This document shows, piece after piece, positions 1 through 53,879 of a stretch of DNA of 64,000 bases. The position numbers and the translations under genes are program-made. Numbering within the stretch: the first letter of the stretch is position 1; every line of letters begins with the position of its first letter. The DNA is from Protonemura montana (Eukaryota > Arthropoda > Insecta > Plecoptera > Nemouridae): positions 26,139,769 through 26,203,768 of the forward strand of contig OX387605.1 of the NCBI GenBank assembly GCA_947568835.1. Direction: 5' to 3'. The notes under the pieces were generated by a model. The model had not been told where the DNA came from and searched no databases. It saw only the letters and a program-made list of their open reading frames with translations.

Positions 1-430
1 TGTGACATCGTGCGCGTGCAGCAAGAACTGGCGACTACTCGGTCGTCTGCGCGCCTGGTAGCAACGAGCTCAATTAACTCAGAATTTCAGACGAGCTTCA
101 AGCGAAAACTAGTCGCGCTAGCCTCGCCTTACGGGTTTACTTCCACCCGTGCTTGTATGTACCACTGGTTGCCTACCTATCAGTCATTTAAAACAACTAT
201 AGTTGATGACGACATTGGGAGATGCAATTAATTATGCTTGACGATGATTTGATAAAATGAGATGGAATGGCATAATAGAGTTTGTTGGGTGAAGATGGAA
301 AAACTTATTTTTTTTTATTTCGGTGTTGCTTAATTTTTGTGTTTGGTGTTTTTAATTCTTAACAAAGCTGTGTTGCTAAACTTGTCACGAGAACCGGTGT
401 TTCCACCACGTTCCGCACGTTCCGTACGAA
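1..430. other. Intergenic, with a degenerate 5S-like fragment
   Basis: No gene is recognised. At about 368-428 the minus strand carries a decayed copy of the head of the 5S-derived SINE described below (ACACCGGTTCTCGTGACAAG followed by a TTTAGCAACAC-like stretch). The rest is AT-rich and unremarkable. Confidence 0.5.
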
Positions 431-439
431 CACTACAAA

Positions 440-1482
440 TACGACGCGAAAAACAGAATTCCTCTACAAATCCATGCTGTCGAGAGGTTGATAAGCAAGG
501 CGAGTAAAGTTGCTGTACTAACTTTCATCCCTCCAACCTCTCTCCCGAACAGAACTGGTCATGTGTATGATGGTCACCCATCCAATACCTGACCCAGCGC
601 AGTGTTGCTTAACTTTCATCCCTCCAAACTCTCTCCCGAACAGAACTGGTCATGTGTATGATGGTCACCCATCCAATACCCGACCCAGCGCAGTGTTGCT
701 TAACTTTCATCCCTCCAACCTCTCTTCCAAACAGAACTGGGCATGTGTATGATGGTCACCCATCCAATACCTGACTCAGTGCAGTGATGCTTAACTATCA
801 TCCCTCCAACCTCTCTCCTGAACAGAACTGGTCATGTGTATGATGGTCACCCATCCAATACCTGACCCAGCGCAGTGTTGCTTAACTTTCATCCCTCCAA
901 CCTCTCTTTCAAACAGAACTGGTCATGTGTATGATGGTCACCCATCCAATACCTGACCCAGCGCAGTGTTGCTTAACTTTCATCCCTCCAACCTCTCTCC
1001 CGAACAGAACTGGTCATGTGTATGATGGTCACCCATCCAATACCTGACCCAGCGCAGTGTTGCTTAACTTTCATCCCTCCAACCTCTCTTTCAAACAGAA
1101 CTGGTCATGTGTATGATGGTCTTCCATCCAATACCTGACCCAGCGCAGTGTTGCTCAACTTTCATCCCTCCAACCTCTCTCCCGAACAGAACTGGTCATG
1201 TGTATGATGGTCACCCATCCAATACCTGACTCAGCACAGTGTTGCTTAACTTTCATCCCTCCAACCTCTCTCCCGAACAGAACTGGTCATGTGTATGATG
1301 GTCATCCATCCAATACCTGACTCAGCACAGTGTTGCTTAACTTTCATCCCTCCAACCTCTCTCCCGAACAGAACTGGTCATGTGTATGATGGTCACCCAT
1401 CCAATACCTGACCTAGCGCAGTGTTGCTTAACTTCGGTGATCTCACGAGAACTGGTGTTTCCAACACGACAAACCGTACGGG
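440..1482 (-). mobile_element. 5S rRNA-derived SINE, copy 1, about 10 tandem promoter modules
   Basis: On the minus strand the element starts near 1482 with a 5S rRNA-like head (GGAAACACC, then a GAGATCACCGAAG-like run). It continues with the box A-like AAGTTAAGCAACACTGCGCT and the box C-like TTGGATGGGTGACC. A 91-bp module spanning box A to box C plus a GGGAGAGAGGTTGGAGGGAT tail is repeated about ten times. The unique SINE body begins near 530 and breaks off near 440, so the 3' end is missing. 5S-derived SINEs (SINE3 class) are known; assignment to a named family needs a repeat-library search. Confidence 0.85.
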
Positions 1483-8658: not shown

Positions 8659-11600
8659 ATGATTAAGATAGGTGGTCTGTGCTGTAAACCCTTGCAGCTA
8701 TCCAACTTTGTGAGCGGTATTGTACATCGTGCTAATGCTGATAGAAATTTGTTTCGTACATGTTCACTAGCAACCTACACAACTATGAGCAAGCAAAAGG
8801 TTTATGTGACTCGATCAGACATTCCAGCTGTTGGTTTGCAGCTCCTAAGAGAAAGGTAGCCGCCCCTGTTACGTATTTTTACATATATATACAATTTATC
8901 AAAGCATGATTGCTTATAAAAGCACAATTTTCCTAGGTACGATGTAACCGTGTGGACAGAAAAAACTCCCGTCTCCCGCGAAGAACTGTTGAAACAAGTG
9001 CAAGGAAAGGATGCATTATTTTGTCTTCTCACAGACAAGATTGACGAGGAGGTTCTCGAGGCTGCAGGTGAATATCGATGTCTTTAGTTCCACATTGCCA
9101 TCGCGTTGTACAGTATTTTACATTGCATGTGTATCGCAGGGCCGTCCTTGAAGGTTGTCGGTACCATGTCAGTTGGCTACGACCACGTAGACCTTGCAGC
9201 TCTGTCGAGACGAGGCGTGAAGCTGGGATTCACACCCGACGTTCTCACAGACGCGGTAGCGGAACTCACTGTCGCACTGCTGTTGGCCACCTCACGCAGG
9301 ATCTTTGAAGCACACGACCAAATAGTCAAGTAAACAATTTTGAGCTCATTTGACTTCTCCCTCCAAACTCCCTCCTTAACAACTCCTTTCTAAACCCTCA
9401 AGGAATACTTCTCCCGAAGTAATTTTTAAATCTGTTAATTGTATCAGTATTTATTTTTATTTATTTTTTATTGTATCCAGATTGAACATACATGTTATTG
9501 GATTGTCAGGGTTGGATTGTGATCCCAATTAATATAAATAATAATACTACCCTACGAGGTAGTACTATAACTACTATACTACTACTACTATAATACTACA
9601 ATATAATGCTACTAATATACAAATTCATTGACATTATAAAAACATTTTTCTAGAAGCCATGATTTTAATTTACATTTGAAAGCACTCCCTTTTATTTGTC
9701 TCAGTTCTTTTGGCAATGCGTTAAAAAACATTTTCCCTGCAAAGGATGGTCCCTGTTTAAACTGTTGCTTTATTCTGTTGATTTATTGCTGTACTTTATT
9801 CATTGCAATATCATCACATACCTTTATCTCTCCGTTGATTGGGAGAGTACGGAATTACCGAGGGTGAGTGGCAGGCCGCGATAGTGGATACTTGTTTACC
9901 TTCATGACTTCTCTTCTCTTCCAGCCATTTGGTACATTACAAATCAACTGCTCAATTATAAAATTTTATTTGACGATGTTTATACATTTACTATGTAAAG
10001 GTCACAAAAAAACAAACAAAACAAAGCATTGCAATAGTTTCTTGGTCTTGGTACAATCTGGAATCTTACTGTCCCTGTAAGACTTTGCATATCTTATGCA
10101 GAATACCAGCCAAGTTGGTGTCTGTATCTGTATCTTCATCTTTTATGTCTATGTATCTTTTATGAATCTGACGTTCCAAATATGTAATCACTAATCAATC
10201 ATGGAAGAAAATTAAAATACAATACGATTAGTGGATTGACTTTTGTTTCCAGGGGCACTTGGGGTGCATGGTCTCCCGGATGGATGTGTGGTCAGGGCGT
10301 GGCCAACGCCACAGTGGGCATCGTTGGCTTTGGAAGAATAGGGAAAGAGGTGAGCAAGCGCAAGGGATTCCTGTCTTTTAATTTCTTTGTTTGACCATCG
10401 ATGCTTGTTGTTCAGTTTACGCTCATGGTTTGAATGGAACATATTGAGCTCGTTTCTGTCTAAACCCTACTTTTGTTTCCATTTCAAGGGAAATATTATA
10501 AATGATGATATAATTATGTTAACTACTGATGTATTTGATGTAATTTACAATCTGAATTTACAGCCAATAAAGCCCAAACCTAAGCAAATCCAATAAATAA
10601 ACAAATAAAGCAACCAGAGGATGAGATTGAAGCAGACAAAGCCTCTGATTAGTTGAATTTCCAGCCGAATTTCAAACTAGCAGATCTTTTTCAAGATCCA
10701 CTACTTTTGAATCTGATTTGTTTTCGAGCTAGTCGAGTCCATTGCTCAGCTGCTTGGTGCCAGCAATGACGATAGAAATTATGATTGAGTTTTATTCCCA
10801 ACAACGCAACGAGTCGAAAGGAATGTCGAAGTTTACTATTGGAACAACATCCAATGTACCTTTGCAATTATACAAACACTAATCGACTAAATTCTTTAAC
10901 CTTAACTTAAACTTTTCAATGTATAATTTTCTCACTTCTGGTAAACAATTGCAAACTTTCCCTCCTTCAAATGTTTTTACTACTTTTAGATTTATTAACT
11001 TTCAAATATTCAACAATGATTGGTCCTCTTTTTTACTTGTGCTATTCAGACGTCAATCCCCTATCTTATGTATTCAAATTAACACATTGTATTTAGTTGT
11101 CAAAATGCTATGTCAATCAGGGATGAAATCGATGATCTGTGCACCCAGGTAGCAGCTCGACTTGCTCCTTTCAAGCCGGCGGCCATCTTGTTCACCAGCC
11201 GTTCCTCTGCTGGGGGCGTGTCCCTGGACGAGCTGCTCGCAAGCAGCGACTTTGTCATCGCGACATGTGCCCTGGTGGACGAGACACGCAACCTGTTCGA
11301 CGCCGCCGCGTTCCGCAAAATGAAGAACTCGGCCGTGTTCGTTAACACGAGCCGCGGAGGTGAGTTCCGTCCGTTCTTGCCACAGACTCGGGGGACAAAC
11401 CCTTGGTTCAAACTGAACAGTTTGTCATGTTGGAAACACCGGTCCTCGTTAGATCACAGAAGTTAAGCTCACTGCGCTGGGTCAGGTATTAGATAGGTGA
11501 CCATCATACACATGACCAGTTCAGTTAGGGAGAGAGGTTGGAGGGATGAAAGTTAAGCAACACTGAGCTGGGTCAGGTATTGGATGGGTGATCATCATAC

Positions 11601-13591
11601 ACATGACCAGTTCTGTTCAGGAGAGAGGTTGGAGGGATGAAAAATCAGCAACACTGTGCTGGATCAGGTATTGGATGGGTGACCATCATACACATGACCA
11701 GTTCTGTTTGGGAGAAAGGTTGGAGGGATGAAAGTTAAGCAACACTGCGCTGGGTCAGGTATTGGATGGGTGACCATCATACACATGACCAGTTCTGTTC
11801 GGGAGAGAGGTTGGAGGGGCGAAAGTTCAGCAACACTGCGCTGGATCAGGTATTGGATGGGTGACCATTATACACATGACCAGTTCTGTTCGGGAGAGAG
11901 GTTGGAGGGATGAAAAATCAGCAACACTGTGCTGGATCAGGTATTGGATGGGTGACCATCATACACATGACCAGTTCTGTTCGGGAGAGAGGTTGGAGGG
12001 GCGAAAGTTCAGCAACACTGCGCTGGATCAGGTATTGGATGGGTGACCATTATACACATGACCAGTTCTGTTCGGGAGAGGGGTTGGAGGGATGAAAGTT
12101 AGTACAGCAACTTCACTTGCCTTGCTTATCAACCTCTCGACAGCATGGATTTGTGGAGGAATCCTGTTGTTCACGTTGTACCGTCCTTCGGAAGGGACGT
12201 GAAGCCGGTGGTCCCCTTGGTGCTCTTCGACAGAAGTAGGCTACGTGCCGGCACCGGGTTTCCCCTCCTTCCTTCCAAGCTATGTTAGGCTCATCATCAT
12301 CCACTCATTCACCGACGCCATTAGACCAGTGCCACATGGCACGTCATCAAAACAGTGCGTCGTTAAACACCACAAATCAATCAATTGGTTCAAAGCTGGA
12401 AACAAGAACTGTAGAGAATGCAAGGCAAAGCTTGCCCAGACATTTGCTGCATGGCACTAAATATTTAATTTTTTGGAGTTTTTTGTTTTTGAGGTTATTG
12501 AATTCCCTACAAAGCCTTTGCGTCAAGGTATTTGTAAGCCGGATGGTTGCGTTGCAGGAGTGGTAGACCAAGAAGCGTTGTTGGCTGCCCTGGACTCAGG
12601 GGAGATCTCAGCCGCCGGGTTGGACGTCATGGTGCCGGAGCCTCTGCTTCCCGGTCACCCGCTACTCGCCCGGCAAAACTGCGGTGAGTCCGGGATTCGG
12701 TAAACAATTTCGTTGCTATGGAAACTATTTCTGCAAATTTCAATGACAATGTGTCTGTACTTTATGAACTTTGAAAAGTTTATTTAACTAACATGAAAAT
12801 TGTCCATAAAATTTGAAAAGTTCCAAAAATTGTATTATTAGGTATAGCAATAACCTCTCAAAAATTGATACTCAAACGGGGAATCAAACCCCGATCTCTA
12901 CCTGTAGCTGGTGTTGCTCTAACCAATTGAGGTACTTAGACACATCATTTTTGAGAGGATTTTAGTGTACCTAATAATAAAATACCCCGCATATTGTAAG
13001 CGTTTGCAATTTAAATAAGATTTCTCACATTTAAAAAGCATCCAACTTCAAACCGGAGTTATTCGAGTTTGACAGGTTGTGACGTGGTACTAGTTAACAT
13101 CACGTTAAGTGGAGCCACTGTCGTATGAATTTTAATTTCGATATTTCTCGTAGGTTAACTCGCTTTTGAGACTTTTCATGCTCAAAAGATCTCCGTCAAT
13201 GTTTACCTCAACGATTGATAAACACGTAACAATATTAAAAAGCAAGTAACCTACGAGAAATATCGAAATTAAATTTCATACGACAGTGGCTCCACTTAAC
13301 GTGATGTTCCGGTACTCTGCATTTTTGTCGGTAAGGTAGTCATTTGGCGGCCATATTTCACGCAGAGACTGTAACATTAACGTTGTTTCTCTACCTATAA
13401 CCTGCACTCAACGGTAGTACGTTGAGGTTTTAATCAGCTTCAGTTGTTTATGTTTGTGTCATGTTGCAGTGGTGCTTCCCCACATTGGTAGCGCCACTAC
13501 GCAGGCGCGCGCCTCCATGGCCGAGTTGACAGCGCAGAACATCATCGCTGCGCTGGAAGGAACGAAGCTGCCAGCGCAAGTGCAGGTCTAA
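8659..13591 (+). CDS. GRHPR: Glyoxylate/hydroxypyruvate reductase, 7 exons
   Basis: A D-2-hydroxyacid dehydrogenase that reduces glyoxylate to glycolate and hydroxypyruvate to D-glycerate with NAD(P)H. Coding exons: 8659-8855, 8937-9067, 9140-9329, 10253-10349, 11149-11359, 12558-12683, 13470-13591. All introns are GT-AG and the joined frame is exactly 1074 nt (357 residues). Visible motifs: TMSVGYDH and TPDVLTD of the substrate domain; the dinucleotide fold GFGRIG (residues 198-203); the family's catalytic Arg274 (SRGG), Glu303 (VPEPLLP) and His322 (LPHIGSAT), at the usual 29 and 19 residue spacings. A second in-frame ATG at 8785 (MSKQKVYV) matches the usual cytosolic start. The 42 extra residues from 8659 are Arg-containing and nearly free of acids, so a mitochondrial leader is possible. 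Introns 4-6 hold repeats described separately. Confidence 0.95.
9830..9960 (+). repeat. Dispersed repeat family E, copy in GRHPR intron 3
   Basis: It shares TTGATTGGGAGAGTACGGAA and GCGATAGTGGATACTTGTTT with copies at 15180-15412 (+), 18703-18812 (-), 21088-21130 (-) and 25198-25315 (-). About 40 bases later this copy has CATTTGGTACATTACAAATC, close to the 42-bp satellite unit in the Pellino introns. Confidence 0.65.
10890..11100 (+). repeat. Dispersed repeat family F, copy in GRHPR intron 4
   Basis: About 200 bases (beginning AATTTTCTCACTTCTGGTAA) recur at 63535-63765 with high identity. This copy lacks an internal segment of roughly 50 bases that the other has. Both copies can be read as an open frame in the same phase, but no protein family is recognised. 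Confidence 0.7.
11413..12386 (+). mobile_element. 5S-derived SINE, full-length copy 2, 7 promoter modules
   Basis: This copy lies in GRHPR intron 5. The head (GGAAACACCGGTCCTCG) resembles 5S rRNA. Seven 91-bp modules with box A and box C follow, then the unique body from about 12095 (GTTAGTACAGC..., GTCCTTCGGAAGGGACGT, GTGCCGGCACCGGGTTTCCC) and a 3' end reading CGTTAAACACCACAAATCAA with a short TCAA tail. It gives the layout of a complete element: 5S head, n modules, body, tail. Confidence 0.88.
12835..13030 (-). mobile_element. Inverted-repeat element with tRNA-like core
   Basis: Read on the minus strand, 12880-12942 is tRNA-like: an A box with CTCAATTGGTTAGAGC-type D arm and a B box (GGTTTGATTCC). 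The flanks are inverted copies of each other (CCTCTCAAAAATTGAT on one side, TTTTTGAGAGGATTTTAGTG on the other), followed by TAATAATAAAATACCCCGCA and TTTGCAATTTAAAT. It lies in GRHPR intron 6. Confidence 0.7.
13085..13385. repeat. Palindromic dispersed repeat family D, copy 1
   Basis: Arms of about 70 bases (ACATCACGTTAAGTGGAGCC at about 13098 and its complement ending near 13306) flank a loop of about 70 bases. The right flank GTCATTTGGCGGCCATATTT is shared with a second copy at 29588-29815. It looks like a non-autonomous hairpin element (MITE-like); no target duplication was verified. Confidence 0.65.
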
Positions 13592-16425: not shown

Positions 16426-19400
16426 TCAGTCCACGTTGTCCTGGAAGATGAGTCGCACAAATCCGGGGTCGCCGACCAGGGGCGTGGCACAGAACGGGCA
16501 GACCGCATCGAAGCCGTTGGTGCCGTGAGGAATCGCAACCATCGCCCAGAATCTGAGACACAAAGTCGAGGGTACAAGCTCCGCCCACTTGCCAAGAGGC
16601 TGGATATTGTTAATAGGGTGCCAAGAGGCTGGATATTGTGAATAGGGTGCCAAGAGGCTGGATATTGTGAATAGGGTGCCAAGAGGCTGGATATTGTGAA
16701 TAGGGTGCCAAGAGGCTGGATATTGTGAATAGGGTGCCAAGAGGCTGGATATTGTGAATAGGGTGCCAAGAGGCTGGATATTGTGAAAAGGATGCCAAGA
16801 GGCTGGATATTGTGAATAGGGTGGCAAGAGGCTGGATATTGTGAATAGGGTGCCAAGAGGCTGGATATTGTGAATAGGGTGCCAAGAGGCTGGATATTGT
16901 GAATAGGATGCCAAGAGGCTGGATATTGTGAATAGGATGCCAAGAGGCTGGATATTGTGAATAGGATGTCAAGAGGCTGGATATTGTGAATAGGGTGCCA
17001 AGAGGCTGGATATTGTGAATAGGATGCCAAGAGGCTGGATATTGTGAAAAGGATGCCAAGAGGCTGGATATTGTGAATAGGATTCCAAGAGGCTGGATAT
17101 TGTGAATAGGGTGCCAAGAGGCTGGATATTGTGAATAGGATGCCAAGAGGCTGGATATTGTGAATAGGATGCCAAGAGGCTGGATATTGTGAATAGGATG
17201 CCAAGAGGCTGGATATTGTGAATAGGATGCCAAGAGGCTGGATATTGTGAATAGGATGCCAAGAGGCTGGATATTGTGAATAGGGTGCCAAGAGGCTGGA
17301 TATTGTGAATAGGATGCCAAGAGGCTGGATATTGTGAATAGGGTGCCAAGAGGCTGGATATTGTGAATAGGGTGCCAAGAGGTTGTATATTGTGAATAGT
17401 GTATATTGTGAAGAGGCTGGATATTGTGAATAGGGTGCCAAGAGGTTGTATATTGTGAATAGTGTATATTGTGAAGAGGCTGGATATACGAGGCTAGATA
17501 CTATAAGTGTATGACGTATGAAGTTGCTGTGGTGGAGAACAAACTCACTTGACTGTCTTCTCGGTAGCCATATGTCCGCACGGGTTGAACCCGAACGTAG
17601 GAGGTTTGTCATCAACGTAGAACGCAGGCTCGATGCCCATGCACACCTTCACCACTGGGCCCACCTGCGGCAGGACAAACAACTTGATGGACACTTTTAA
17701 TCCGGTACGAAAACTAGAAATCAAACAATTTGTTTACAAAGGGCTTAGAACGGTTCAGCGTGTTGGAAACGCCGGTCCTTATGAGATCACCGAAGTTATC
17801 AAGGGTAAGAGCAGTCCACAAAAGAATATATCGGAAGGTTGTCAGGACTGCTTTAACCCTCGTTAAAGTAACAGGTACAAGTTATGAAACGTTGGGAAAT
17901 TTAGCTGTTCTTCACTTAGCATTGAAAACCCAGTTGAAATAGTTTTTGTCAAAACAAGTAATAGTTTAGGTTAGATAAAGTAGACATCAGTTAAAAACTT
18001 TATTGTCTTTACTTTTACGAAACTGGACATCAAAATATCGTGTATATGTTTCAATGACAATAAACAAATTATTATTTATTTTATTTGTTATTTATCTTAT
18101 TTTTAAAGAAATATTGAAATTGTAAGGAAAAATGATGAGAATGGAGGAAGATTGCCAAGAAAGATTTTTAGCTTAGAATAACAAAGGGAATGAGGAAAAC
18201 TAATAGAAAGATGGATGCACAAAGTACAAGCAGATGTGGGGGAAAGAGATGAGGAATGGATTGAAGTAGAAGGGAAAAAAAGCTGGCGAGATAAGGAAGT
18301 ATGGAAGAATTGGGTGAATGAAAAACCCGTGAAGACGAAAAATGATTTTCTACCTGTTGTAAGAAATTAATGAACAATAAAATGATCATCATCCAGACGC
18401 ATGCGTAGTTATGTGACTCACCTGCAGACACATCGGGCAACGGCGGTCGCCGGTCTCCTTGTCTTGACCCCAGTCGTGGTGGCCTTGCACGTGACCGCAG
18501 TTCAGATAGACGTACGGCTGCTGCTTGTCGGAATCTACAAGACTCAACGCCATCTTGCCACGAGGGATAACTAACGTGTTCAGACCCACGGGACACTGGA
18601 TCCGAGCAGCGTTCAGTTCGTCCACCATTTTCTCCAGGCACACCTGTCGAGAGCAAACGTAACAGCGAAATCTCATTTAAATTGCAATGTACAGGATATA
18701 TTTTATGAGGAATTAAGGCTGAAACAGCCGAAATGCCAACAAACAAGTATCCACTTCGCGGCCTGCCACTCACCGCTCAGTAAGTTCCTTATTCTCCCAT
18801 TACTTTCCAAATCAACTTATTCTTGTTATCCCAGCCCTTTGCCACATTACAAATCAACATATTCTTGTTATCCCAGCACTTTGACACATTACAAATCAAC
18901 ATATTCTTGTTATCCCAGCACTTTGACACATCACAAATCAACATATTCTTGTTATCCCAGCACTTTGACACATTACAAATCAACATATTCTTGTTATCCC
19001 AGCACTTTTGACACATTACAAATCAACATATTCTTGTTATCCCAGCACTTTGCCGCATTACAAATCAACATATTCTTGTTATCCCAGCACTTTGCCGCAT
19101 TACAAATCAACATATTCTTGTTATCCCAGCACTTTGGCACATTACAAATCAACATATTCTTGTTATCCCGGCACTTTGACACATTACAAATCAACATATT
19201 CTTGTTATCCCAGCACTTTGACACATTACAAATCAACATATTCTTGTTATCCCAGCACTTTGACACATTACAAATCAACATATTCTTGTTATCCCGGCAC
19301 TTTGACACATTACAAATCAACATATTCTTGTTATCCCAGCACTTTGACACATTACAAATCAACATATTCTTGTTATCCTAGCCCTTTGGCACATTACAAA

Positions 19401-22400: not shown

Positions 22401-25400
22401 AACGAGCACGAAACACCGCACTTACCCCGAGAGCGATGTTTTTGGAGCCGTTGAATCCCGCTGCGTATATCCTGGCTACGCGGGGGTTGGCGCGGTCGGC
22501 CAGGATCCGACAAGCGAAGCGCGATATCGTGCTCGGGACGACGCGGCCCTCGGCAGACTTGTCTCCCGGCACCGTGTCGAGTACAACAAAGTCGATCGGG
22601 CTCTCGGACGAACGCCCAATCTGTAACAAAGACGCTGTTACCATGGCGATACACGTTCATTTACATTCTACGATGTCGAAAACCAATTTCCAAGCAATAT
22701 CGAGTAACCAAGCAACCAACATTATTGGCATTGTTAACCTTTGGGGTCATTCCATGTGAAATAGGACCACTTTAAATGAGTTTTGACCTTGACCGACTCA
22801 GAATTTCATGAAATTCGGCACACTTGTTCAGAATGTTGGTTTGAGTAAAAGTATTTTTTTGTTTGTTTTTTACTCGAAGAGTTCAAAAGTTACAGGGGGT
22901 TGAAGTTCGGGTGTTTTCACCCCCCGCGCGCGTATCACCGTCACATTATATACTTTATCTCGGGTTGTATGACAGCTACAGAGTTCCAGGAGAGCTCATC
23001 TGAAAGCTAATTAAATTCTCTACTTGAATATATAATAATATGTTCCACTTGGTGGACAGCTAATTTATCTTGATTTTCTACATCTGCATTTTCAAAAAAC
23101 GCCACTGGAAAAAACCCTCCCCTTTCATTTACCTAAAAAAAATGTATTAATGTTGCCAACATATGAATGAATATTTGTGCCAAAATTCAGAGTTGGCCCT
23201 TCACAGGTTTTCAAGAAAAAAAATATCTTGTGCAAAAAGTTTTTTTTATCAGGCAGTTCCAGAGCATAGATCCTATACCCACAATGCATAACAGCTCAGG
23301 CTTTTATCAACATGGTGAGTAATGCTCATTTTACATTTGATTGTGTTTGTTCCACTTTTCAATACACGTTTATTCTTGAAAGCACACTTTCATCAAGTGA
23401 CATGTTGAAACTAGAAATGTGTGCAGAAGTCAAAAACTTATCATTTCTTGTCTGAACCTCATACTTGATAACCTGCATTAGTTTCTCTTCACATCTTGAA
23501 GAGTGTAGTAGTGAATTTATTGTTCACACCCTTAACATTTTTTGTAATTGTATAATTAAAAAATGTGTTCAGTTGGACAGCTCTTGAAAGAAGAGTGTGA
23601 AGATCATATGAATATTATTAGCGACTTGGAAAATGACAATCAGATTTTATTAGCATTGCGTTCAAAATGTGAAAATATTACATCAGTGTGCAGTTACATG
23701 AAAATACATTAAAATCCCCAACTTTGTTACTGCTTTCGTGGAAAAATCTTCATGCGAATCATATTCGTCACCGAGGACACAAGTTTCAGCCGCTTCTTGA
23801 AACTCTTGGTTGCATCACGGCGTTTTCTTTTTAAATATAATTTAGATTTACCTTTTAGTCTTTTCCTGTTGAGTGGAGATACACCAAATGCAGCTAAAGA
23901 CTGGTTAACTAGTTTTAACGCAGAATCTGTTTCCACGAAAGGTTAGTCAGGTTCAGCAGATTTCGTTCGTGTCTGAATGGAAATGGTATTTTATTCTTTT
24001 TGCTTTTCTGGTAGTAGTTTCCGACAGGTCGAGCATAATTTCTTCCCAGGAATAAGTTCCACAATCTCCAGATATTTATTTCTGTATGTTAAATTAATTG
24101 ATGTCAATCTTTTACCTCTGTGTGTGCCAGTGTGTGTTTTGAAAGGATCACAGCACGACTTGTTGCCAAGGCAATAATGTACAAGAAATGTATTTTCATG
24201 TAACTGCACACTGATGTAATATTTTCACATTTTAAACGCAATGCTAATAAAATCTGATTGTCACTTTCCAAGTCGCCAATAATGTGCATATGTTCTTCAC
24301 ACTCTTCTTTCAAGAGCTGTCCAACTGAACACATTGTTTAATTAATAATTATACAAATACAAAAAATGTTAAGGGTGTGGACAATAAATTCACTACTACA
24401 CTCTTCAAGATGTGAAGAGAAACTAATGCAGGTTATCAAGTATGAGGTTCAGACAAGAAATTATAAGTTTTTAACTTCTGCACACATTTCTAGTTTCAAC
24501 ATGTCACTTGATGAAAGTGTGCTTTCAAGAATAAACGTGTATTGAAAAGTGGGACAAACGCAATCAAATGTAAAATGAGCATTACTCACCATGTTGATAA
24601 AAGCCTGAGATGTTATGCATTGTGGGTATAGGATCTATGCTCTGGAACTGCCTGATAAAAAAACTTTTTGCACAAGTTATTTTTTTTCTTGAAAACCTGT
24701 GAAGGGCCAACTCTGAATTTTGGCACAAATATTCATTCATATGTTGGCAACATTAATACATTTTTTTTAGGTAAATGAAAGGGGAGGGTTTTTTCCAGTG
24801 GCGTTTTTTGAAAATGCAGATGTAGAAAATCAAGATAAATTAGCTGTCCACCAAGTGGAACATATTATTATATATTCAAGTAGAGAATTTAATTAGCTTT
24901 CAGATGAGCTCTCCTGGAACTCTGTAGCTGTCATACAACCTGAGATAAAGTATATAATGTGACGGTGATACGCGCGCGGGGGGTGAAAACACCCGAACTT
25001 CAACCCCCTGTAACTTTTGAACTCTTCGAGTAAAAAACAAACAAAAAAATACTTTTACTCAAACCAACATTCTGAACAAGTGTGCCGAATTTCATGAAAT
25101 TCTGAGTCGGTCAAGGTCAAGGGTGGTCCTATTTGACATGGAATGACCCTTTGTTGCCATATACGATATATGGCAACAATTATAATTAATAATTAATCAA
25201 CGTCAAATTTGAGTTAATCGAGATATTGACAGGTTGTGACGTGATATAGCGTCACTAGAATCAGAGTGACTGTGAGTATTCACAGCCTCTTGGTTCTACT
25301 CCTTGGAGATCCGTCATTCTCATCAAATACACTGAAATCATATCTAAAAGCATGTGTCTAAGTAGCTCAATTGGTTAGAGCAACACCCGCGACAGGTAGA

Positions 25401-27766
25401 AATCGGGGTTCGAGTCCCCGTTTGAGCACCATTTTTTGAGACTAAGTTTTTCCTTCTAGGTTAGGTTAGGTTCATCATCATCCACTCATTCACCGACGCC
25501 ATTAGACCAGTGCCGCATGGCACGTTGTCAAAACAGTGCTATGTTAAACAGCACAAATCAATCGATGATTACGTCGGCTTGCAAGGTTGGCTAACCTGGA
25601 ACATGTCAGTCTCGTCATCGTGGGTGTATTCAACAATCACCGCTTGGCTCCGTGACAACGTGTACGAGATCGAGTGTTGCTTGTTGTCGAGGATCGCCTG
25701 AAAATAATTGGGGAATCAGTCTCGTAGTGAGAGTTTTTAGACTCATGTCCACTTGATGTAAACTTAGCACTAGTTTTAACAAAAACTATTTCAACTTGGT
25801 TTTCAATGCTAAGTGAAGAACAACTAAATTTCTCAACGTTTCGTAACTTGTACCTGTTACTTTATCAAGGGTTAGAGCAGTCCTGACAAAAAATTGTCAC
25901 GAAAATGCAAATAAACAAATAATTGGTTGGTTCGAATGGTTGGTGCAAAAACTTTTGGCACAATACAGAATTCCTGAAATGTCCCATGAAATTTGATAAG
26001 TATAAACTCTTCGATTGATATCCCTGTAAGACACAGATGTTTTCGACATGAAAACTACCCTAGACTGGAGACTGACCTGCGAGGAGTGGGGCGTCCGTAC
26101 AACGTAATGCTTGGATCGCTTGACACCGTTCGCAGTGTAACGTTTGTACAAGACAAACTTGCTGCGACGTCGCCCTCGGTCTCCCGACGGGAGCAGCCCG
26201 TTGTACCTGCAAGCAACGTTGACCTCAAAACATGCATCGACAACTCAACGAGGGCTGCCAGCCAGTACAGTCGACCGTACACTAGACCACGAGAGAAGTG
26301 ATTTATTTCTTTAATTTTCAATTAAGTTAGGAAAATGTCCAGTATTTTTATCTTTCACTTATTGAGAAAAAAAGCTACAAGCTAGAAATATTTCCCGTGG
26401 TTTTGAAAGTTTAATCGAAATGGAGAGACTCGATGGTCAGAGGCCAGAGACCCTCAGTTTGGCTGCCAGCCTTTCTTTATGAAATAACATCTGGATAATA
26501 ATATCTTAACAACTTTTTTCTCCCAAAATAGCAAGTATTTTTTCTCACTGACTAAAATTCGTAATAACCTGCTATCAATGAAATCACAAAGCAAACAGTG
26601 TCAAACGTTTCCATAAACCCCCGACATCTTGATTCTGAAAACAATCATTTGTTTGACTCATGCAGCATGAGTTGCAATGTGTGTGGCAACATCAATGGGT
26701 CGTAAATTATGATCTTGGAGTCGACTAGAGTACGCGGCAAAAGTATGAACAATGAACAAGTCACTATTAATATCTCTCTGTGTCTGTGTGTATGCAGCCA
26801 GATCGCTATCTGTTGAACCAAACATTTCCACGCTTTCAAAAGCTGACCTTACAGCCGACAGCAAACACAAACATGGACAGCTTGGGTTTCTGCAGACTTC
26901 GCCCGATCAAGGAAATAACAACACGACGCCGCCGCGAAACATAGCCAAGATGACACTTGAAGTGCAAAAAAAACTGTAAACAAAACGAGCGCAAGTCGCA
27001 GCACGGTGCACTGGATGCCCTGGCACGGCACGTGGACCCCCACCACTGGACCTCACAGTATCACAGCTGTCTTGCATACAGCTGTGCGCGGCGTTGCCGT
27101 CTCGAGCCTTGAGACGGGACAAAGCCTGTGCTTGACTCAGCATACTGCGCCGCGATCCGACCACCCGAGATAGCGACCATATAAGCCGTGCCTGACGCTA
27201 CACGGCTACAGACAATCGCTATCACGATTGCAAACATACAAGTCTCTCGGCCTGGGCGACCCGTAGAACGCCTCCCGAGCGATCCCGTTGCAAAGCTAGT
27301 GAGGGGGGGGGGGGGGGGGGGAGGGCGTCGTACACCCTCGGGGTGCTATGCTTACCCTAGGATGACCAGCTCCCCGTATTTGCAGACGGGTTTCGGCTCG
27401 GCTTCTTGGGTCTCGGGAGTGCTGCAGCCGTCCGAACTGCAACAGAGAACACGAAATCATGATGGGGCAATCTTGTCCTTGACCGCGGTGTTGTTGACAA
27501 CGGCGCGACCTGCCAGGGCGATCGATCCAGTCTAACGGCGCAAGCTGCCTGGCTGGCAAACAAGACCGATTGAGCGGATGTCCGGGCGGCCGGACCTACA
27601 ACTGGTCTCGCTACGGGTAGCACCCATGGTGGCACCCAGGGCAGGAAGCTGACGCACACCGATTTCTCGGCCGCGACTGTACCGCCTCCTGGAAGGATAC
27701 CGTAGCCTGCTGTGTCTAGGTTTTGCCCCCGAGGGGTCGTGAAGCCAGGACTCACCGAATGACCAT
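16426..27766 (-). CDS. PELI1: Pellino E3 ubiquitin ligase, 10 exons
   Basis: Pellino proteins bind phosphorylated IRAK kinases through an FHA-like domain and ubiquitinate them in Toll/IL-1 receptor signalling. Coding exons in transcript order: 27766-27756, 27436-27356, 26206-26077, 25697-25596, 22620-22426, 20628-20440, 19612-19508, 18643-18422, 17664-17549, 16552-16426. All phases fit and the sum is 1278 nt (425 residues; vertebrate PELI1 is about 418). The first exon is only 11 coding bases (ATGGTCATTCG, good start context), supported by exact phase and a GTGAGT donor. Recognisable: KYGELVILGYNG, QHSISYTLSRSQ, IGRSSESPIDFVV, STISRFACRI, DGLTTNGVL, LIDLCGATLLWRSAEGL, and the Cys/His-rich C-terminus with CPVGLNTL, YLNCGHVQGHHDWG, RCPMC, NPCGHMATEK, CPFCATPLVG and RLIFQ. 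The introns are packed with arrays. Orthology to PELI1, 2 or 3 individually cannot be decided. Confidence 0.95.
16591..17490. repeat. 29-bp minisatellite in Pellino intron 9
   Basis: About 28 copies of a unit containing GCCAAGAGGCTGGATATTGT occupy nearly the whole last intron, ending about 40 bases from the acceptor of exon 10. Long minus-strand open frames across it reflect the repeat, not a gene. Confidence 0.93.
17750..17960 (+). repeat. 5S-SINE head fragment joined to repeat family C
   Basis: At 17757-17797 a 5S-like head (GTTGGAAACGCCGGTCC, then GAGATCACCGAAGTTA) stops short of box A and runs into family C (17815-17960, with TTAGCATTGAAAACCCAGTT). It lies in Pellino intron 8. Confidence 0.6.
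18703..18812 (-). repeat. Repeat family E fragment abutting the 42-bp satellite
   Basis: On the minus strand it reads GAACTTACTGAGCGGTGAGT and GGCATTTCGGCTGTTTCAGC. It runs directly into the satellite that follows. Confidence 0.6.
18807..19412. repeat. 42-bp minisatellite, Pellino intron 7
   Basis: About 14 copies of a unit with ATTACAAATCAACATATTCT and TTATCCCAGCACTTTG. The same unit is repeated at 21130-21365 in intron 5 of the same gene. Confidence 0.93.
19405..19490 (-). pseudogene. Decayed tRNA-like element
   Basis: AACCACTCAAAAATTATTGC followed by a weak complement of the tRNA-like core (TCACAGATGG in place of the usual anticodon-arm sequence). It is probably a worn copy of the inverted-repeat tRNA-like element, fused to the end of the 42-bp array. 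Confidence 0.4.
19778..20410. repeat. 49-bp minisatellite, Pellino intron 6
   Basis: About 13 copies of a unit with GATATTCCATCCTTATGAGG and AGATAAAGCTTGCACA; the later units are more diverged. The array ends within 35 bases of exon 6's donor side (exon border 20440). Confidence 0.92.
20745..20890. mobile_element. Inverted-repeat element lacking its tRNA-like core, copy 2
   Basis: AACAATATAACCATCTCAGA and its complement TTTTTGAGACGGTTCTAGTG flank a short centre (CACAAACAGGCATTTGTG). The tail TTGCAAACGCTTGCAATGCA is on the left. Same family as 15435-15655. Confidence 0.55.
21088..21365. repeat. Family E fragment plus 42-bp minisatellite, Pellino intron 5
   Basis: GATCACTTCACTCCAGTGAT and AACAGCCGAAATG (family E, minus strand) lead straight into six copies of the 42-bp unit also found in intron 7. 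Confidence 0.85.
21415..22345. repeat. 104-bp tandem repeat, Pellino intron 5
   Basis: Nine copies of a unit with CTAACTTAGGTACAAGTATA, GGCAATCTGGCCTATGCTAG and a (TATT)n run. The last unit ends about 80 bases from exon 5. Confidence 0.92.
22744..25149. mobile_element. 2.4-kb palindromic DNA transposon, TTTG target duplication
   Basis: The ends are GGGTCATTCC and its complement GGAATGACCC, flanked on both sides by TTTG (22740-22743 and 25150-25153), a likely 4-bp target-site duplication. The arms, about 22744-23711 and 24186-25149, are near-identical inverted repeats of roughly 965 bases. The roughly 470-bp centre reads on the minus strand as pieces with protein character: CCDPFKTHTGTHRGKRL and KKLCSTCRKLLPEKQKE (cysteine pairs), then a Lys/Arg-rich run (LKGKSKLYLKRKRRDATKSF). 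Both arms encode a MCSVGQLLKEECE-type peptide. A 4-bp duplication and long inverted repeats occur in the Sola group; that assignment is a guess. It lies in Pellino intron 4. Confidence 0.85.
25198..25315 (-). repeat. Repeat family E fragment
   Basis: On the minus strand it contains CCAAGAGGCTGTGAATACTC and GTCACAACCTGTCAATATCT, matching 15300-15400 (+). It lies in Pellino intron 4, just beyond the palindromic transposon. Confidence 0.6.
25360..25570 (+). mobile_element. tRNA-like element fused to a 5S-SINE 3' end
   Basis: 25364-25435 is tRNA-like on the plus strand (TAGCTCAATTGGTTAGAGCA; B box GGTTCGAGTCC), but its acceptor stem has mismatches. After a remnant TTTTTTGAGAC flank, the sequence becomes the 3' end of the 5S-SINE (TCATCATCATCCACTCATTC to ACAGCACAAATCAATCGATG). 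This is a chimera of the window's two Pol III families or one inserted into the other. Confidence 0.6.
25765..25905 (-). repeat. Dispersed repeat family C, copy 3
   Basis: Reverse orientation of 17815-17960; contains CAACTTGGTTTTCAATGCTA. It lies in Pellino intron 3. Confidence 0.65.
27299..27322 (+). repeat. Poly-G tract beside Pellino exon 2
   Basis: A run of about 20 G, interrupted by one A near each end, starts about 35 bases beyond the exon 2 donor. On the transcribed strand it is poly-C. It is a candidate G-quadruplex on the plus strand. Confidence 0.85.
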
Positions 27767-28844: not shown

Positions 28845-29295
28845 TTTTATTATTATGAACTAGTGTTCATTAACCGTCTCAAAAATTGACGCCCAAACGG
28901 GGACTCGAACCCCGATCTCCACCTGTCGCAGGTGTTACTTCTAACCAATTGAGCTACTTGGACCCCGATCTCCACCTGTCGTGGGTGTTGCTCTAACCAA
29001 TTGAGCTACTTGGACCCCGATCTCCACCCGTCGCGGGTGTTGCTCTAACCAATTGAGCTACTTGGACCCCGATCTCCACCTGTCGCGGGTGTTTCTCTAA
29101 CCAATTGAGCTACTTGGACCCTGATCTCCACCTGTCGCGGGTGTTGCTCTAACCAATAGAGCTACTTGGACACCGGCTTTCTGAGACGATTTTAGTCCCC
29201 GTTTGGGCATCAATTTTTGAGACGGTTATAGTGTTGATAATAATAAAATACCCCACGCATTGCAAGCGTTTGCAATTTAAATCAGATTTCATCAT
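28845..29295 (-). mobile_element. Inverted-repeat element with five tandem tRNA-like units
   Basis: The flanks TTCATTAACCGTCTCAAAAA and TTTTTGAGACGGTTATAGTG are inverted. Between them, on the minus strand, five tRNA-like units occupy 28891-29171. The unit at 28891-28963 is complete (73 nt, B box complement GGACTCGAACC at 28901-28911). The other four are exactly 52 nt each (28964-29015, 29016-29067, 29068-29119, 29120-29171) and carry the A box/D arm (TAGCTCAATTGGTTAGAG) but no T arm. The tail ACGCATTGCAAGCGTTTGCA lies on the right. Confidence 0.8.
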
Positions 29296-33894: not shown

Positions 33895-35040
33895 CTGAGA
33901 TCGACCCTAGTCTGGCCAGTTGTTATTATACGCAAGCTCCCAGCCAGTCATCGTGCAAGTCAGAGCACGGCGGCAGCTTGAGCATGCACAGACAAGTCTC
34001 GGCTCAGCCGGGTGTGACGACGATAACGCAATGCCGGTGTCATCGATCCACACTACACATGCTGATCGGGTGTCAGCCGACGTCGATCAGTGGTGGGAGG
34101 GGCGTTTCGCGTGATTGTTTCACACTAGACTCGAATGGGTTCGGGACGGGAACACTTCTGCAGCATACTGCGGCTAGAGCGAAATGTCACGGGAGCTTGC
34201 GGTTGTCGGTGGCTATTTAGGACATCGATTTTATACGCCAGTCAATGGCCAACTGGCTGCGAAACAGAAACAATGACAGCTCGACTGTCAATAATGTTAA
34301 ACGCAATACGCGGACAAGTCGTGTGAGAGAGAATTCATATGAAAGCGAGCGACGTTTGCGTCTTTTATTGTGTCGACTGCCTGACAAAGCAAGTTGGCTT
34401 CAGACAAAATAGGAAGTAACTCGGTAATCTACTTGCTTGGGTTCTTGTGGATTACGTAAAAAAAAAATGGTTGCCCGTCAAAACAGCTATCAACTAACAC
34501 ATCGACGTCTCGTTCAGAGGCGAATGCTGTGCAATCGAAATGGGAAAACAGGTCGTACATCGGTCGTATTTAACGAAAAGTCTACTCACATCAGTGGCAT
34601 CACTGGAACCCACTCACTGGCAGTCACTGCACTAAACTTGCAGCAGACACACTCGTCGCTTCCGCCATTTTTAAAAGTGCACTGCTGCTATCTGTTAGTT
34701 GATGCCACGGCCGCTGCGTTCATGGCGCCACCTCTCGGCCGCGTGGTTCGACGCGAAGAAAAACAAAAGTAACGCCGGGAGAATATTTTAATTGGTCACA
34801 TATATATTTGCGCTGTTTTAGCGAATGGCAAGAAAAAAAATATTCGAGAAAGTATCAGTTGCTGCTGCTGAGCATTTCAACCATGCGCTAGTTCAGATAT
34901 GTTCGTGAAATTATGCCTCGCTCGCGACCGAATGCACTGTAATTGTGGTGCCTACGACTGCGGTGTATTTTAGGAGCCCACAGACCCAGGTCTGGCACGA
35001 GTCCTATCCGTGGCAGTCGCCCCCTGTTCCCGACGCCAGC
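33895..35040. other. Intergenic; upstream region of the DUSP23-like gene
   Basis: No gene recognised. The last roughly 65 bases before 35041 are open in frame with the phosphatase (from an AG at 34970), so a longer N-terminus through an upstream exon is possible. Confidence 0.35.
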
Positions 35041-37204: not shown

Positions 37205-37722
37205 ATCAATTAATTGATTTGTGTTGTTTAACGACGCGCTGTTTTGACAACGCGCCATGTGGCACTGGTCTAATGGCGTCAGTGAATGAAATGATGATGA
37301 TGAACCTAACCTAGCCTAGAAGGAAGGGGAAACCCGGTGCCGACACGTAGCCTACTCCTGTCGAAGAGCACCAAGGGGACCACCGGCTTAACGTCCCTTC
37401 CGAAGGACGGTAGAACGCGAACAACAGGATTCCTCCACAAATCCATGCTGTCGAGAGGTTGATAAGCAAGGCGAGTGAAGTTGCTGTACTAACTTTCATC
37501 TCTCCAACCTCTCTCCCAAACAGAACTGGTCATGTGTATGATGGTCACCCATCCAATACCTGACACAGCGCAGTGTTGCTTAACTTTCATCCCTCCAACC
37601 TCTCTCCCGAACAGAACTGGTCATGTGTATGATGGTCACTCATCCAATACCTGACCCAGCGCAGTGTTGCTTAACTTCAGTGATCTCACGAGGACCGGTG
37701 TTTCCAGCACGACAAACCGTTC
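37205..37722 (-). mobile_element. 5S-derived SINE, full-length copy 3, 2 modules
   Basis: Minus orientation. The head is at 37722-37680 (GGAAACACCGGTCCTCG and a GAGATCACTGAAG-like run), followed by two 91-bp modules, the body, and a 3' end at 37205 (TTAACGACGC on the plus strand). It lies head to head with copy 4, 60-70 bases away. Confidence 0.87.
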
Positions 37723-37784
37723 GGTGATTTGGGATCGCTGCAGACATTGCCCAATATTTCCAAAATCCAAACAAATATATGTAC

Positions 37785-38780
37785 GGTTTGGCTTGTTGGA
37801 AACACCGGTCCTCGTGAGATCACTAAAGTTAAGCAACACTGCGCTGGGTCAGGTATTGGATGGGTGACCATCATACACATGACCAGTTCTGTTCGGGAGA
37901 GAGGTTGGAGGGATGAAAGTTAAGCAACACTGCGCTGAGTCAGGTATTGGATGGGTGACCATCATACACATGACCAGTTCTGTTCGGGAGAGAGGTTGGA
38001 GGGATGCAAGTTAAGCAACACTGCGCTGGATCAGGTATTGGATGGGTGACCATCATACACATGATCAGTTCTGTTCGGGAGAGAGGTTGGAGGGATGAAA
38101 GTTAAGCAACACTGCGCTGAGTCAGGTATTGGATGGGTGACCATCATACACATGACCAGTTCTGTTTGGGAGAGAGGTTGGAGGGATGCAAGTTAAGCAA
38201 CACTGCGCTGGATCAGGTATTGGATGGGTGACCATCATACACATGACCAGTTCTGTTTGGGAGAGAGGTTGGAGGGATGAAAGTTAAGCAACACTGCGCT
38301 GCTTCAGGTATTTGATGGGTGACCATCATACACATGACCAGTTCTGTTTGGGAGAGAGGTTGGAGGGATGAAAGTTAAGCAACACTGCGCTGCTTCAGGT
38401 ATTTGATGGGTGACCATCATACACATGATCAGTTCTGTTCGGGAGAGAGGTTGGAGGGATGAAAGTTAAGCAACACTGCGCTGAGTCAGGTATTGGATGG
38501 GTGACCATCATACACATGACCAGTTCTGTTTGGGAGAGAGGTTGGAGGGATGCAAGTTAAGCAACACTGCGCTGGATCAGGTATTGGATGGGTGACCATC
38601 ATACACATGACCAGTTCTGTTTGGGAGAGAGGTTGGAGGGATGAAAGTTAAGCAACACTGCGCTGCTTCAGGTATTTGATGGGTGACCATCATACACATG
38701 ACCAGTTCTGTTTGGGAGAGAGGTTGGAGGGATGAAAGTTAAGCAACACTGCGCTGCTTCAGGTATTTGATGGGTGACCA
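37785..38780 (+). mobile_element. 5S-derived SINE copy 4, about 11 modules, no 3' body
   Basis: Head at 37793 (TTGTTGGAAACACCGGTCCT), then about eleven modules of 91 bp. Variants in the modules (GCTTCAGGTATTTGATGGG; TGCAAGTTAAGC) recur in blocks, suggesting repeated unequal exchange. The SINE body and tail are absent. A second short head (GTTTGGCATGTTGGAAACAC) follows at 38787-38818. Confidence 0.85.
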
Positions 38781-38819
38781 CCGCACGGTTTGGCATGTTG
38801 GAAACACCGGTCCTCCCAG

Positions 38820-40577: not shown

Positions 40578-41368
40578 CTTTTGATTGGTTGATTTGTGGT
40601 GTTTAACGACGCACTGTTCTGACAACGTGCTATGCGGCACTGGTCTAATGGCGTCGGTGAATGAGTGGATGATGATGAACCTAACCTAGAAGGGAGGAGG
40701 GGAAACCCGGTACCGGCACGTAGCCTACTCCTGTCGAAGACCAAGGGGACCAACGCTTAACGTCCCTTCCGAAGGACGGTACAACGCGAACAACAGGATT
40801 TCTCCACAAATCCATGCTGTCAAAAAGTTGATAAGCAAGGCGAGTGAAGTTGTTGCACTAACTTTCATCCCTCCAACCTCTCTCCCGAACAGAACTGGTC
40901 ATGTGTATGATGGTCACCCATCCAATACCTGACCCAGCGCAGTGTTGCTTAACTTTCATACCTCCAACCTCTCTCCCGAACAGAACTGGTCATGTGTATG
41001 ATGGTCACCCATCCAATACCTGACCCAGCGCAGTGTTGCTTAACTTGCATCCCTCCAACCTCTCTCCCGAACAGAACTAGGCATGTGTATGATGGTCACC
41101 CATCCAATACCTGACCCAGCGCAGTGTTGCTTAACTATCATCCCTCCAACCTCTCTCCCGAACAGAACTGGGCATGTGTATGATGGTCACCCATCCAATA
41201 CCTGACCCAGCGCAGTGTTGCTTAACTTCGGTGATGTCGCGAGGACCGGTGTTTCCAACACGCCAAACTGTTCGGTGGTCATCCATCTTAAACCTGACCC
41301 AGCGCAGTGTTGCTTAACTTTGGTGATCTTACGAGGACCGGTGTTTCCAACACGACAGATTGGTTAGT
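40578..41368 (-). mobile_element. 5S-derived SINE, full-length copy 5, with a duplicated head
   Basis: Minus orientation, from the 3' end at 40578 to the head at 41368. There are about four modules, then two 5S-like heads (near 41240-41268 and 41325-41360), so a head-plus-module unit was itself duplicated. Confidence 0.85.
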
Positions 41369-53243: not shown

Positions 53244-53378
53244 CTGGAACTGACGGAGCTAACATCACAATTGTGTTCTGCGCGAGGCAACAGGTCGCAG
53301 CAGTCAGGTGCATGTCACCCACCGACAATCTCAGATCTCGTCCATACACGACGCTAAAAGCTGGAACACTCTTGGGAA

Positions 53379-53879
53379 TTGATTGATTTGTGGTGTTTAA
53401 CATATCTGGTCATAAGGCACAGGTCTAATGGCGTCGGTGAATGAGTAGATGATGATGATGATGAACCTAACGTAGCCTAGAAGCGAGGAGACGAAATCCG
53501 GTGCCGGCACGTAACCTACTCCTGTCGAAGAGCACCAAGAGGACCACCGGCTTAACGTCCCTTGTCAAAGGACGGTACAACGCGAACAACAGGATTCCTC
53601 CACAAATCCATGCTGTCGAGAGGTTGATAAGCAAGGCGATTCAAGTTGCTGTACTAACTTTCATCCCTCCAACCTCTCTCCCAAACAGAACTGGTCATGT
53701 GTAGTATGATGGTCACCCATCCAATACCTAACCCAGCACAGTGTTGCTTAACTTGCATCCCTCCAACCTGTCTCCCGAACAGAACTGGTCACTCATCCAT
53801 TACCTGACTCAGCACAGTATTACTTAAGTTCGGTGATCTCACGAGGACCAGTGTTCCCAACATGACAAACAGTTCGGTC
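53379..53879 (-). mobile_element. 5S-derived SINE copy 8, abutting the RNA-binding gene's stop codon
   Basis: Minus orientation, head at 53879-53835 (GTTGGGAACACTGGTCCTCG), about two modules, body, 3' end at 53379 (TTGATTGATTTGTGGTGTTT on the plus strand). The TGA of the last certain coding exon (53880-53882) touches the SINE's 5' end, so the SINE would form the start of the 3' UTR or of the next intron. Confidence 0.82.

Follow-up and report, generated by a model that had tools for sequence, protein, structure and literature searches.

A 5S rRNA-derived SINE of Protonemura montana with tandem copies of its promoter-like region

Background

Zebrafish SINE3 is reportedly a short interspersed element (SINE) derived from 5S rRNA, and Twin of Culex is said to be a SINE with a dimeric head.

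Other SINEs of 5S origin, according to the accessible parts of the papers concerned, are HaSE3 of Helicoverpa (PMC3272025), whose tail is common to the tRNA-headed HaSE1, and PxSE4 and PxSE5 of Plutella (PMC8010984); the word "tandem" is absent from the main text of both papers. Tandem arrays are known from Cassandra, for which the accessible part of PMC7215508 describes transcripts covering two to five units. Satellites derived from 5S, namely PcP190 of Physalaemus and a centromeric repeat of Hoplias, are cited in PMC11202950 and PMC5437419, and Twin is a dimeric-head SINE by the title under which PMC8010984 cites it.

The first-pass annotation of the DNA analysed here, made from its letters alone, proposed a 5S-derived SINE that multiplies its own internal promoter, a layout for which it knew of no described example. 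The open-access literature, a scope outside which most subscription papers fall, likewise yielded no SINE with tandem internal promoters, and the agreement is provisional. The analysis favours, with a probability of roughly 0.7, a 5S-headed SINE of the SINE3 type whose promoter part has undergone two kinds of duplication and which inserts both as monomers and as multimers.

Organization of the element in the window

The window is the whole stretch of 64,000 nucleotides that was analysed (C3:26,139,769-26,203,768), located about 1 Mb from the end of the 27.2-Mb contig C3 in a genome of 258 Mb and 34 contigs. Alignment of the copies divides the element into a head (H, 47 nt), a core (C, 45 nt), a segment T (46 nt) and a body (B, about 290 nt in three pieces, B1 to B3). 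The core carries what we take, from textbook knowledge, to be box A, the intermediate element (IE) and box C, and together with T it forms a module of 91 bp, the alpha unit. In its simple form, found at L013, L024, L031-L034 and L051-L055, the element reads H-C-T-B with a single module. The short matches that bound the module, AAGTTAAGCAAC at the start of the core and AAAGTTAGTACAGCAAC at the start of the body, are as originally described.

Segmentation of the window resolves 11 copies or large fragments containing module sequence, the number first counted, together with a lone head at 17748 and short fragments of T or B at 9358, 36732, 36821, 40481 and 51550. The range of 2 to 11 modules initially reported for most copies also holds, with about 2 to 10.5 modules in 9 of the 11 and fewer at 50892 and 58556. 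TRF detects eight tandem arrays with a 91-bp period and a single array with a 92-bp period (41184-41354). The Rfam 5S_rRNA model (RF00001, gathering score 38) matches the minus strand at 1362-1482 with 57 bits, and three further 5S matches lie at 37605, 37778 and 41162.

Copy A (about 430-1482, minus strand) consists of a 5S-like head (1435..1482, within the 57-bit match), ten 91-bp modules, each with the box A/IE/box C region (525..1434; TRF 519-1434, 10.1 copies), and an incomplete body in which the start of B1 passes into diverged sequence (430..524); an old head remnant lies beside it at 385-410. Copy B (11413..12385, +) has a head, seven modules (TRF 11460-12101, 7.1 copies), the full body and the tail, with the target site duplication (TSD) TTGGTTCAAA. 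The lone head (17748..17792) is on the plus strand. Copy C (37209..37725, -), with a head, two modules (TRF 37490-37677, 2.1 copies), body, tail and the TSD GATCCCAAATCA, is the first half of an inverted pair. Next to it, a head is followed by ten modules with a three-unit higher-order repeat and no body (37778..38815, +; TRF 37825-38780, 10.5 copies), and this array ends in a core linked to a head fragment via the beta junction described below.

Copy D (40584..41357, -) begins with a partial head and core, crosses a beta junction and continues with a head, four modules (TRF 40851-41228, 4.1 copies) and the body. Copy E (43918..44649, +) is headless and has about 4.5 modules (TRF 43940-44359, 4.6 copies), body and tail. 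A 15-bp minisatellite (36 copies), one module and a partial body make up copy F (50365..51170, +), which is apparently intronic in a BTB/PHR-like gene recognised by eye. Copy G (53378..53877, -) has a head, two modules, one of them with a deletion, body and tail. A headless array of about four modules (56848..57249, -; TRF 56850-57242, 4.3 copies) forms the left arm of a palindrome whose right arm consists of about three modules, body and tail (57265..57808, +; TRF 57268-57529, 2.9 copies). Copy I (58551..58791, +) is 5'-truncated and retains T and a body with deletions.

Head-to-head inverted pairs of arrays, or palindromes, occur at 37209-38815 and 56848-57808. The 15-bp minisatellite, with the unit CATCATACACATGAC, has grown from the boundary between core and T both in the window (50365-50906, 36 copies) and at L006:99-1500 (about 90 copies), and is a satellite nested inside a SINE module.

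Relationship to 5S rRNA

The genome's own 5S genes are represented by 104 pattern matches (55 + 49, with at most 2 mismatches), many of them about 956 bp apart on C15 and C23. The three that were read (L056-L058) score 105-115 bits with Rfam. The alignment of the element with the genome's own 5S gene starts at base 16 of H and reaches GGGTGACC close to the core's end, and the pairwise similarity of bases 1-15 of H to 5S is weak. By pairwise alignment, H and the core are 5S-derived, the core coinciding almost exactly with the predicted box A-IE-box C control region. The body and T do not resemble 5S: the alignment of T with the 3' part of 5S is no better than that of shuffled sequences, 1161 of 2000 being equally good. 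The Rfam model disagrees with the pairwise alignment in that it is matched at all 120 positions, and hence into T, so that the start of T may be decayed 5S sequence.

The head had been described as 5S-like and the module as containing box A, the intermediate element and box C; by alignment, the resemblance to 5S is confined to H and the core. The broader proposal of a 5S-derived SINE is borne out by the Rfam matches, by the alignment to the genome's own 5S gene and by the TSDs. As in SINE3 elements, the head derives from 5S rRNA and is found, by Rfam and by the 5S gene alignment, with box A, IE and box C.

Two repeat units

Multiplication of the promoter-bearing module, first claimed for the window, is apparent throughout the genome. 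A 44-nt core pattern has 39 matches in the window and at least 32,988 in the genome with up to 3 mismatches, far more than chance would give, and its reversed control has 0. Exact core patterns had no match in bacterial and archaeal contigs (44 letters) or in viral contigs (28 letters). Junctions between parts were counted with 32-letter patterns (at most 3 mismatches, reversed controls 0), and all of these counts are lower bounds: at least 8,986 for H to C, at least 25,992 for T to C (the alpha junction) and at least 8,537 for T to B in 258 Mb. Like SINE3 elements, the element is dispersed in thousands of copies, as the T to B junctions show. The ratio of 25,992 T to C junctions to 8,537 T to B junctions suggests about four modules per copy.

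A second unit, beta, which is absent from the first-pass annotation, consists of H and the core in tandem (92 bp). The exact 92-bp spacing among the H to C matches listed led to its C to H junction, of which there are at least 2,282 in the genome. One breakpoint of this junction falls precisely on base 1 of the element. This breakpoint and its partner base are identical at two places in the window and at L027-L029, none of which was chosen by that junction; the other beta loci were chosen by the C to H junction itself and are uninformative on breakpoint recurrence. In L027, a complete element is preceded by five H+C units; eight cores make up the H+C array L028, in which a three-unit block is repeated; and in L029 alpha units are followed by beta units. 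Pure beta arrays without T or body are present at L028, L035, L036, L037, L040 and L044, and a headless array of at least 18 modules at L001. The H+C array at L028:235-960 seemingly makes up about the whole intron of a transporter-like gene, with exon edges placed by eye.

Target site duplications

An exact direct repeat of at least 9 bp flanks 9 of 13 complete copies, as against 1 of 156 mismatched flank pairs. The nine include copies with one module (L013, L024, L031 and L034), with two (window 37.2-37.7 kb and L023), with four (L026) and with seven (window 11.4-12.4 kb), and a beta dimer (L042). Among the remaining complete copies, L032 has a repeat of 8 bp, and no clear TSD was found at copy G, L021 or L033. 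Elsewhere, no clear TSD was found at copies A, D, E and I or at L025, and the best candidate at the beta copy L027, of 6 bp, is unconvincing. In a set of seven further copies, one has a TSD of at least 9 bp (L052, 11 bp), and L051 and L054 show, by eye, direct repeats of 15 and 13 bp with one mismatch each.

The tails end in short AAT or CAAT repeats, and the 3' tail is common to a tRNA-headed SINE. The TSDs are of the LINE type, as in SINE3 elements. The ends that they mark are H and the tail of B and their length is 9-15 bp, which separates the element from the TRIMp3 group (Cassandra, Ajax), where the 5S promoter lies within LTRs and TSDs measure about 5 bp. Since the alpha arrays of complete copies span the distance from head to body, with the TSDs adjoining, these copies are SINEs and not a satellite that was hit once.

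Multiplication before and after insertion

The most direct indication that arrays can arrive already multiplied comes from L007. This copy starts at base 8 of T and continues with seven modules and the body, and an exact TSD of 14 bp adjoins that start, the best among 500 shuffles being 11 bp. A single-module template cut at this base holds no core, so this one copy shows that its modules were multiplied before or during insertion. L007 was also considered as strict proof of a multimeric RNA, and this was dropped, since a reverse transcriptase slipping on a one-module RNA could build the same array; hence the wording "before or during". A TSD by itself is silent on whether an array pre-existed the insertion. 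Weaker arguments for inherited multimers are provided by the recurrent beta breakpoints and by the non-CpG variant 22A. Of 103 modules, 27 carry this variant, and 9 of the 10 multi-module arrays that contain it also have other letters at that site.

Arrays change after insertion as well. L046, L047 and L048 (C1, at 20.98, 22.42 and 26.09 Mb) have common flanks of about 95% identity beyond the arrays, one of them inverted, and are therefore segmental duplicates. One insertion common to L046 and L048 carries 13 modules in the former and 5 in the latter, and a second, common to L046 and L047, carries 10 and 9, respectively. Array length is thus unstable after insertion, as predicted by the unequal exchange initially proposed. 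Moreover, higher-order repeats of three and of five units occur inside arrays (window 37826, L001), and 36.7 of 79 modules have their closest relative within their own array, where 7.9 would be expected, which suggests that much of the multiplication was local.

The facing arrays at L046-L048, about 3-4 kb apart, were considered as a composite transposon. This candidate was rejected since the flanks outside the arrays are common, as in segmental duplicates; an inverted pair that moves with its interior as a unit, as in foldback or composite elements, was not found there.

A possible origin of the arrays

In the favoured explanation, that of a SINE inserting as monomers and multimers, alpha repeats would arise and grow through misalignment between AAGTTAAGCAAC at the start of the core and AAAGTTAGTACAGCAAC at the start of the body. 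Beta repeats, in which the control region's end meets base 1 of the element, would result from a template jump of the reverse transcriptase, the most likely origin given that the breakpoint is the exact 5' end. Multimeric arrival would proceed from a multimeric RNA, which is judged likelier, or from slippage at AAGTTAAGCAAC/AAAGTTAGTACAGCAAC on a one-module RNA. After insertion, arrays lengthen, shorten and build higher-order repeats in the manner of a minisatellite, apparently more so near chromosome ends. Several points stand against this explanation: multiplication before or during insertion is known from one copy, L007; modules often have their closest relative in the same array; a number of copies show no clear TSD, and in six of the seven further copies none of 9 bp was found; the Rfam model is matched into T; the first 15 bases of H are weakly 5S-like; and pure beta arrays without T or body are unexplained by ordinary retroposition.

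Promoter number and the tRNA-headed SINE

It has to be considered whether the arrays are a selected strategy, in which more control regions would give better transcription or protection and consequently more progeny. Alpha and beta units each contain exactly one entire control region. T has nearly the length of H and stands in its place in the arrays, so that each internal core would lie at its natural distance from a possible start site; indeed, a 5S-type start 47 nt before the core would coincide with the first base of T, plus or minus one base. The consensus pieces contain no TTTT terminator, and the individual sequence of copy A includes one. Internal promoters and read-through are plausible at most, and it is from sequence only that we infer that the cores might be working TFIIIA/Pol III sites.

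The tRNA-headed SINE speaks in the same direction. In the window, a tRNA-Ser-like head with the same 3' tail (the end of B2, and B3) lies at 25356..25566 (+), and a tRNA-like head with a 52-bp box-A unit repeated five times at 28890..29180 (-). Genome-wide there are at least 17,564 such box-A units, a number that includes any true tRNA genes of this sequence, and at least 13,996 unit-to-unit junctions. This SINE multiplies its box A too, so that the 5S head is not alone in multiplying its promoter. A wider reading, in which the unrelated 5S (type 1) and tRNA (type 2) Pol III promoter heads on one tail have both evolved open-ended promoter arrays that insert as multimers after transcription and reverse transcription, with a promoter copy number that is inherited and selected and that seeds satellites of short units throughout the genome, is put forward as a tentative possibility with the odds against it.

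Weak clustering of the multi-module state on a tree of bodies also favours a benefit of promoter number: 8 changes were counted against a shuffled mean of 11.7, and 8 of 500 shuffles were as low, on a tree that is star-like, with little resolution, and in which one pair is a single insertion represented twice. Against it, conservation is no higher in the cores than in T (mean non-CpG divergence 0.031 versus 0.023, with equal medians; p = 0.46, 142 modules). Nor are multi-module bodies younger than one-module bodies, with median ages of 5.0% (20 rows, which include some segmental duplicates) and 4.8% (12 rows), respectively (p = 0.64). One-module copies are common, and a benefit of this kind does not predict the regional bias described below. 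Selection for promoter number appears unlikely.

Regional distribution of the arrays

A neutral process, in which one-module SINEs insert and repeat-prone regions then multiply the module, the promoter being incidental, would account for several regional features. TRF arrays of period 10 or more occupy 31.4% of the window and 2.1% of 14 mid-chromosome samples (140 kb), and tandem repeats other than this SINE make up 15.8 kb of the window. In a small hand-picked set, multi-module copies are 7 of 7 at up to 2 Mb from a contig end and 1 of 12 farther inside (p = 0.00016); when the window copies, L013 and L021 are removed from this hand-picked set, the figures are 2 of 2 and 0 of 9 (p = 0.018). 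The set leaves out the loci chosen by module or by known module number (L023-L026, L030, L046-L048, L059 and the headless L001-L008). Multi-module copies among those left out lie 2-3 Mb from an end (L023, L025, L030, L059) or in mid-chromosome (L046-L048), positions that do not fit the neutral process.

On C1, counts were made by hand among the first 100 exact matches listed, over the stretch common to all lists (tails reach 31.39 Mb). Among these matches, 36 of 45 T to C arrays lie at the ends as against 56 of 100 tails (p = 0.0055), the tail matches including those of the tRNA-headed SINE. With the first 2.1 Mb taken as the sole end, 13 of 22 arrays and 9 of 53 tails among the matches listed are terminal (p = 0.0006). 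Compared with heads of the same SINE, again among the matches listed, the proportions are 36 of 45 and 29 of 46 (p = 0.10), with p = 0.25 for the first end only and p = 0.03 when segmental duplicates are merged. That arrays are commoner near chromosome ends is likely rather than firmly shown.

The tandem repeats of the window include units of 63 bp x 45, 47 bp x 29, 23 bp x 94 and 29 bp x 30. At about 30.15-32.05 Mb of C1, the exact SINE matches listed are nearly all on the plus strand for several patterns, an excess that is probably an effect of listing; in the 8-kb stretch L059 of this region, a 5S copy and a tRNA unit both lie on the minus strand. Open reading frames of the window (34909-35388, 43313-43891, 49861-51643, 58777-59682 and 60119-60619) resemble, by eye, a dual-specificity phosphatase, a BTB/BACK/PHR protein, an RRM protein and mitochondrial ribosomal protein S7, which suggests that the region is genic.

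The neutral process also agrees with the varying module number of one insertion between duplicates and with the nested 15-bp and higher-order repeats. It is at odds with L007 and its 14-bp TSD, with beta breakpoints that recur without evident homology in the window and at L027-L029 and whose junction is found thousands of times in the genome, with the mixture of shared variants within arrays, and with the lack of any repeated piece of B among the copies segmented. As a full account it is quite unlikely. As regards the long arrays, the evidence leans slightly towards a by-product of repeat-prone regions rather than a service to the element.

Possible effects on the host

The dispersed cores, which number at least 33,000 beside about 104 5S genes, might act as a sink for TFIIIA or as boundary or chromatin elements, an effect that we consider highly improbable. 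The ratio of about 300 to 1 between cores and 5S genes, taken from pattern counts, and the seemingly intronic position of some arrays, judged by eye, are in its favour. Against it, the 5S gene count is a lower bound, the cores show no extra constraint, and the chromatin of SINEs is often silenced. Given that the cores are no better conserved and that the window is rich in repeats, the sequestration of TFIIIA or chromatin role suggested for the arrays in the first-pass annotation is conjecture.

That annotation had itself raised the alternative of a 91-bp satellite hit once by a SINE, which was checked and does not apply. An independent satellite of this kind, with arrays without transposon ends, or an artefact of assembly is scarcely credible, for although long headless arrays (L001, at least 18 modules) and pure beta arrays without body do occur, head and body junctions are about equally numerous (at least 8,986 and at least 8,537), complete copies with one, two, four and seven modules have TSDs, the arrays differ in their variants and higher-order repeats, and the arrays read measure about 1-2 kb in contigs of up to 33 Mb.

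Implications

If the element does insert both as monomers and as multimers, promoter number per copy would vary over thousands of copies and constitute a natural dosage series for Pol III and retroposition. This would provide a natural test of whether extra promoters improve the mobility of the element or merely accompany regions prone to repeats. The path from a SINE to a satellite is visible within one genome, with stages of 1, 2, 4, 7 and at least 13 modules and with nested 15-bp repeats. Moreover, the presence of at least 33,000 5S control regions alongside about 100 5S genes in the assembly raises a testable question of TFIIIA supply.

Comparison with known systems

Several described systems share part of this organization; they are compared here as far as the accessible parts of the sources go. 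Twin of Culex also has more than one Pol III-like head per element, but by its title it is a dimer, whereas the number of units is open-ended and variable here. PcP190 of Physalaemus and the Hoplias repeat are likewise tandem 5S-derived DNA. By their titles, however, these are satellites, whereas in P. montana complete arrays stand between a head and a tail, with TSDs adjoining. The Ajax TRIMs of nemerteans (PMC10886601) resemble the element in having the 5S control region alone (box A, IE and box C). They are LTR retrotransposons with 5-bp TSDs, and the accessible part of that paper describes no promoter arrays.

The nearest parallel for tandem 5S promoters is Cassandra, a retroelement with, in that case, multi-unit transcripts. 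Cassandra is a plant LTR element (TRIM) whose repeating unit comprises LTR and internal domain, whereas here the promoter part alone is repeated.

In its 5S head (box A, IE and box C), its unrelated body, its TSDs and its dispersion, the element resembles HaSE3, PxSE4 and PxSE5, and, as HaSE3 does with HaSE1, it shares its tail with a resident tRNA-headed SINE. In HaSE3, PxSE4 and PxSE5, as far as the accessible text describes them, there is one promoter per element, whereas two tandem units multiply it here. The SINE3 kind itself is known; what appears to be new is a SINE3 element that multiplies its promoter in two registers and is able to arrive multiplied.
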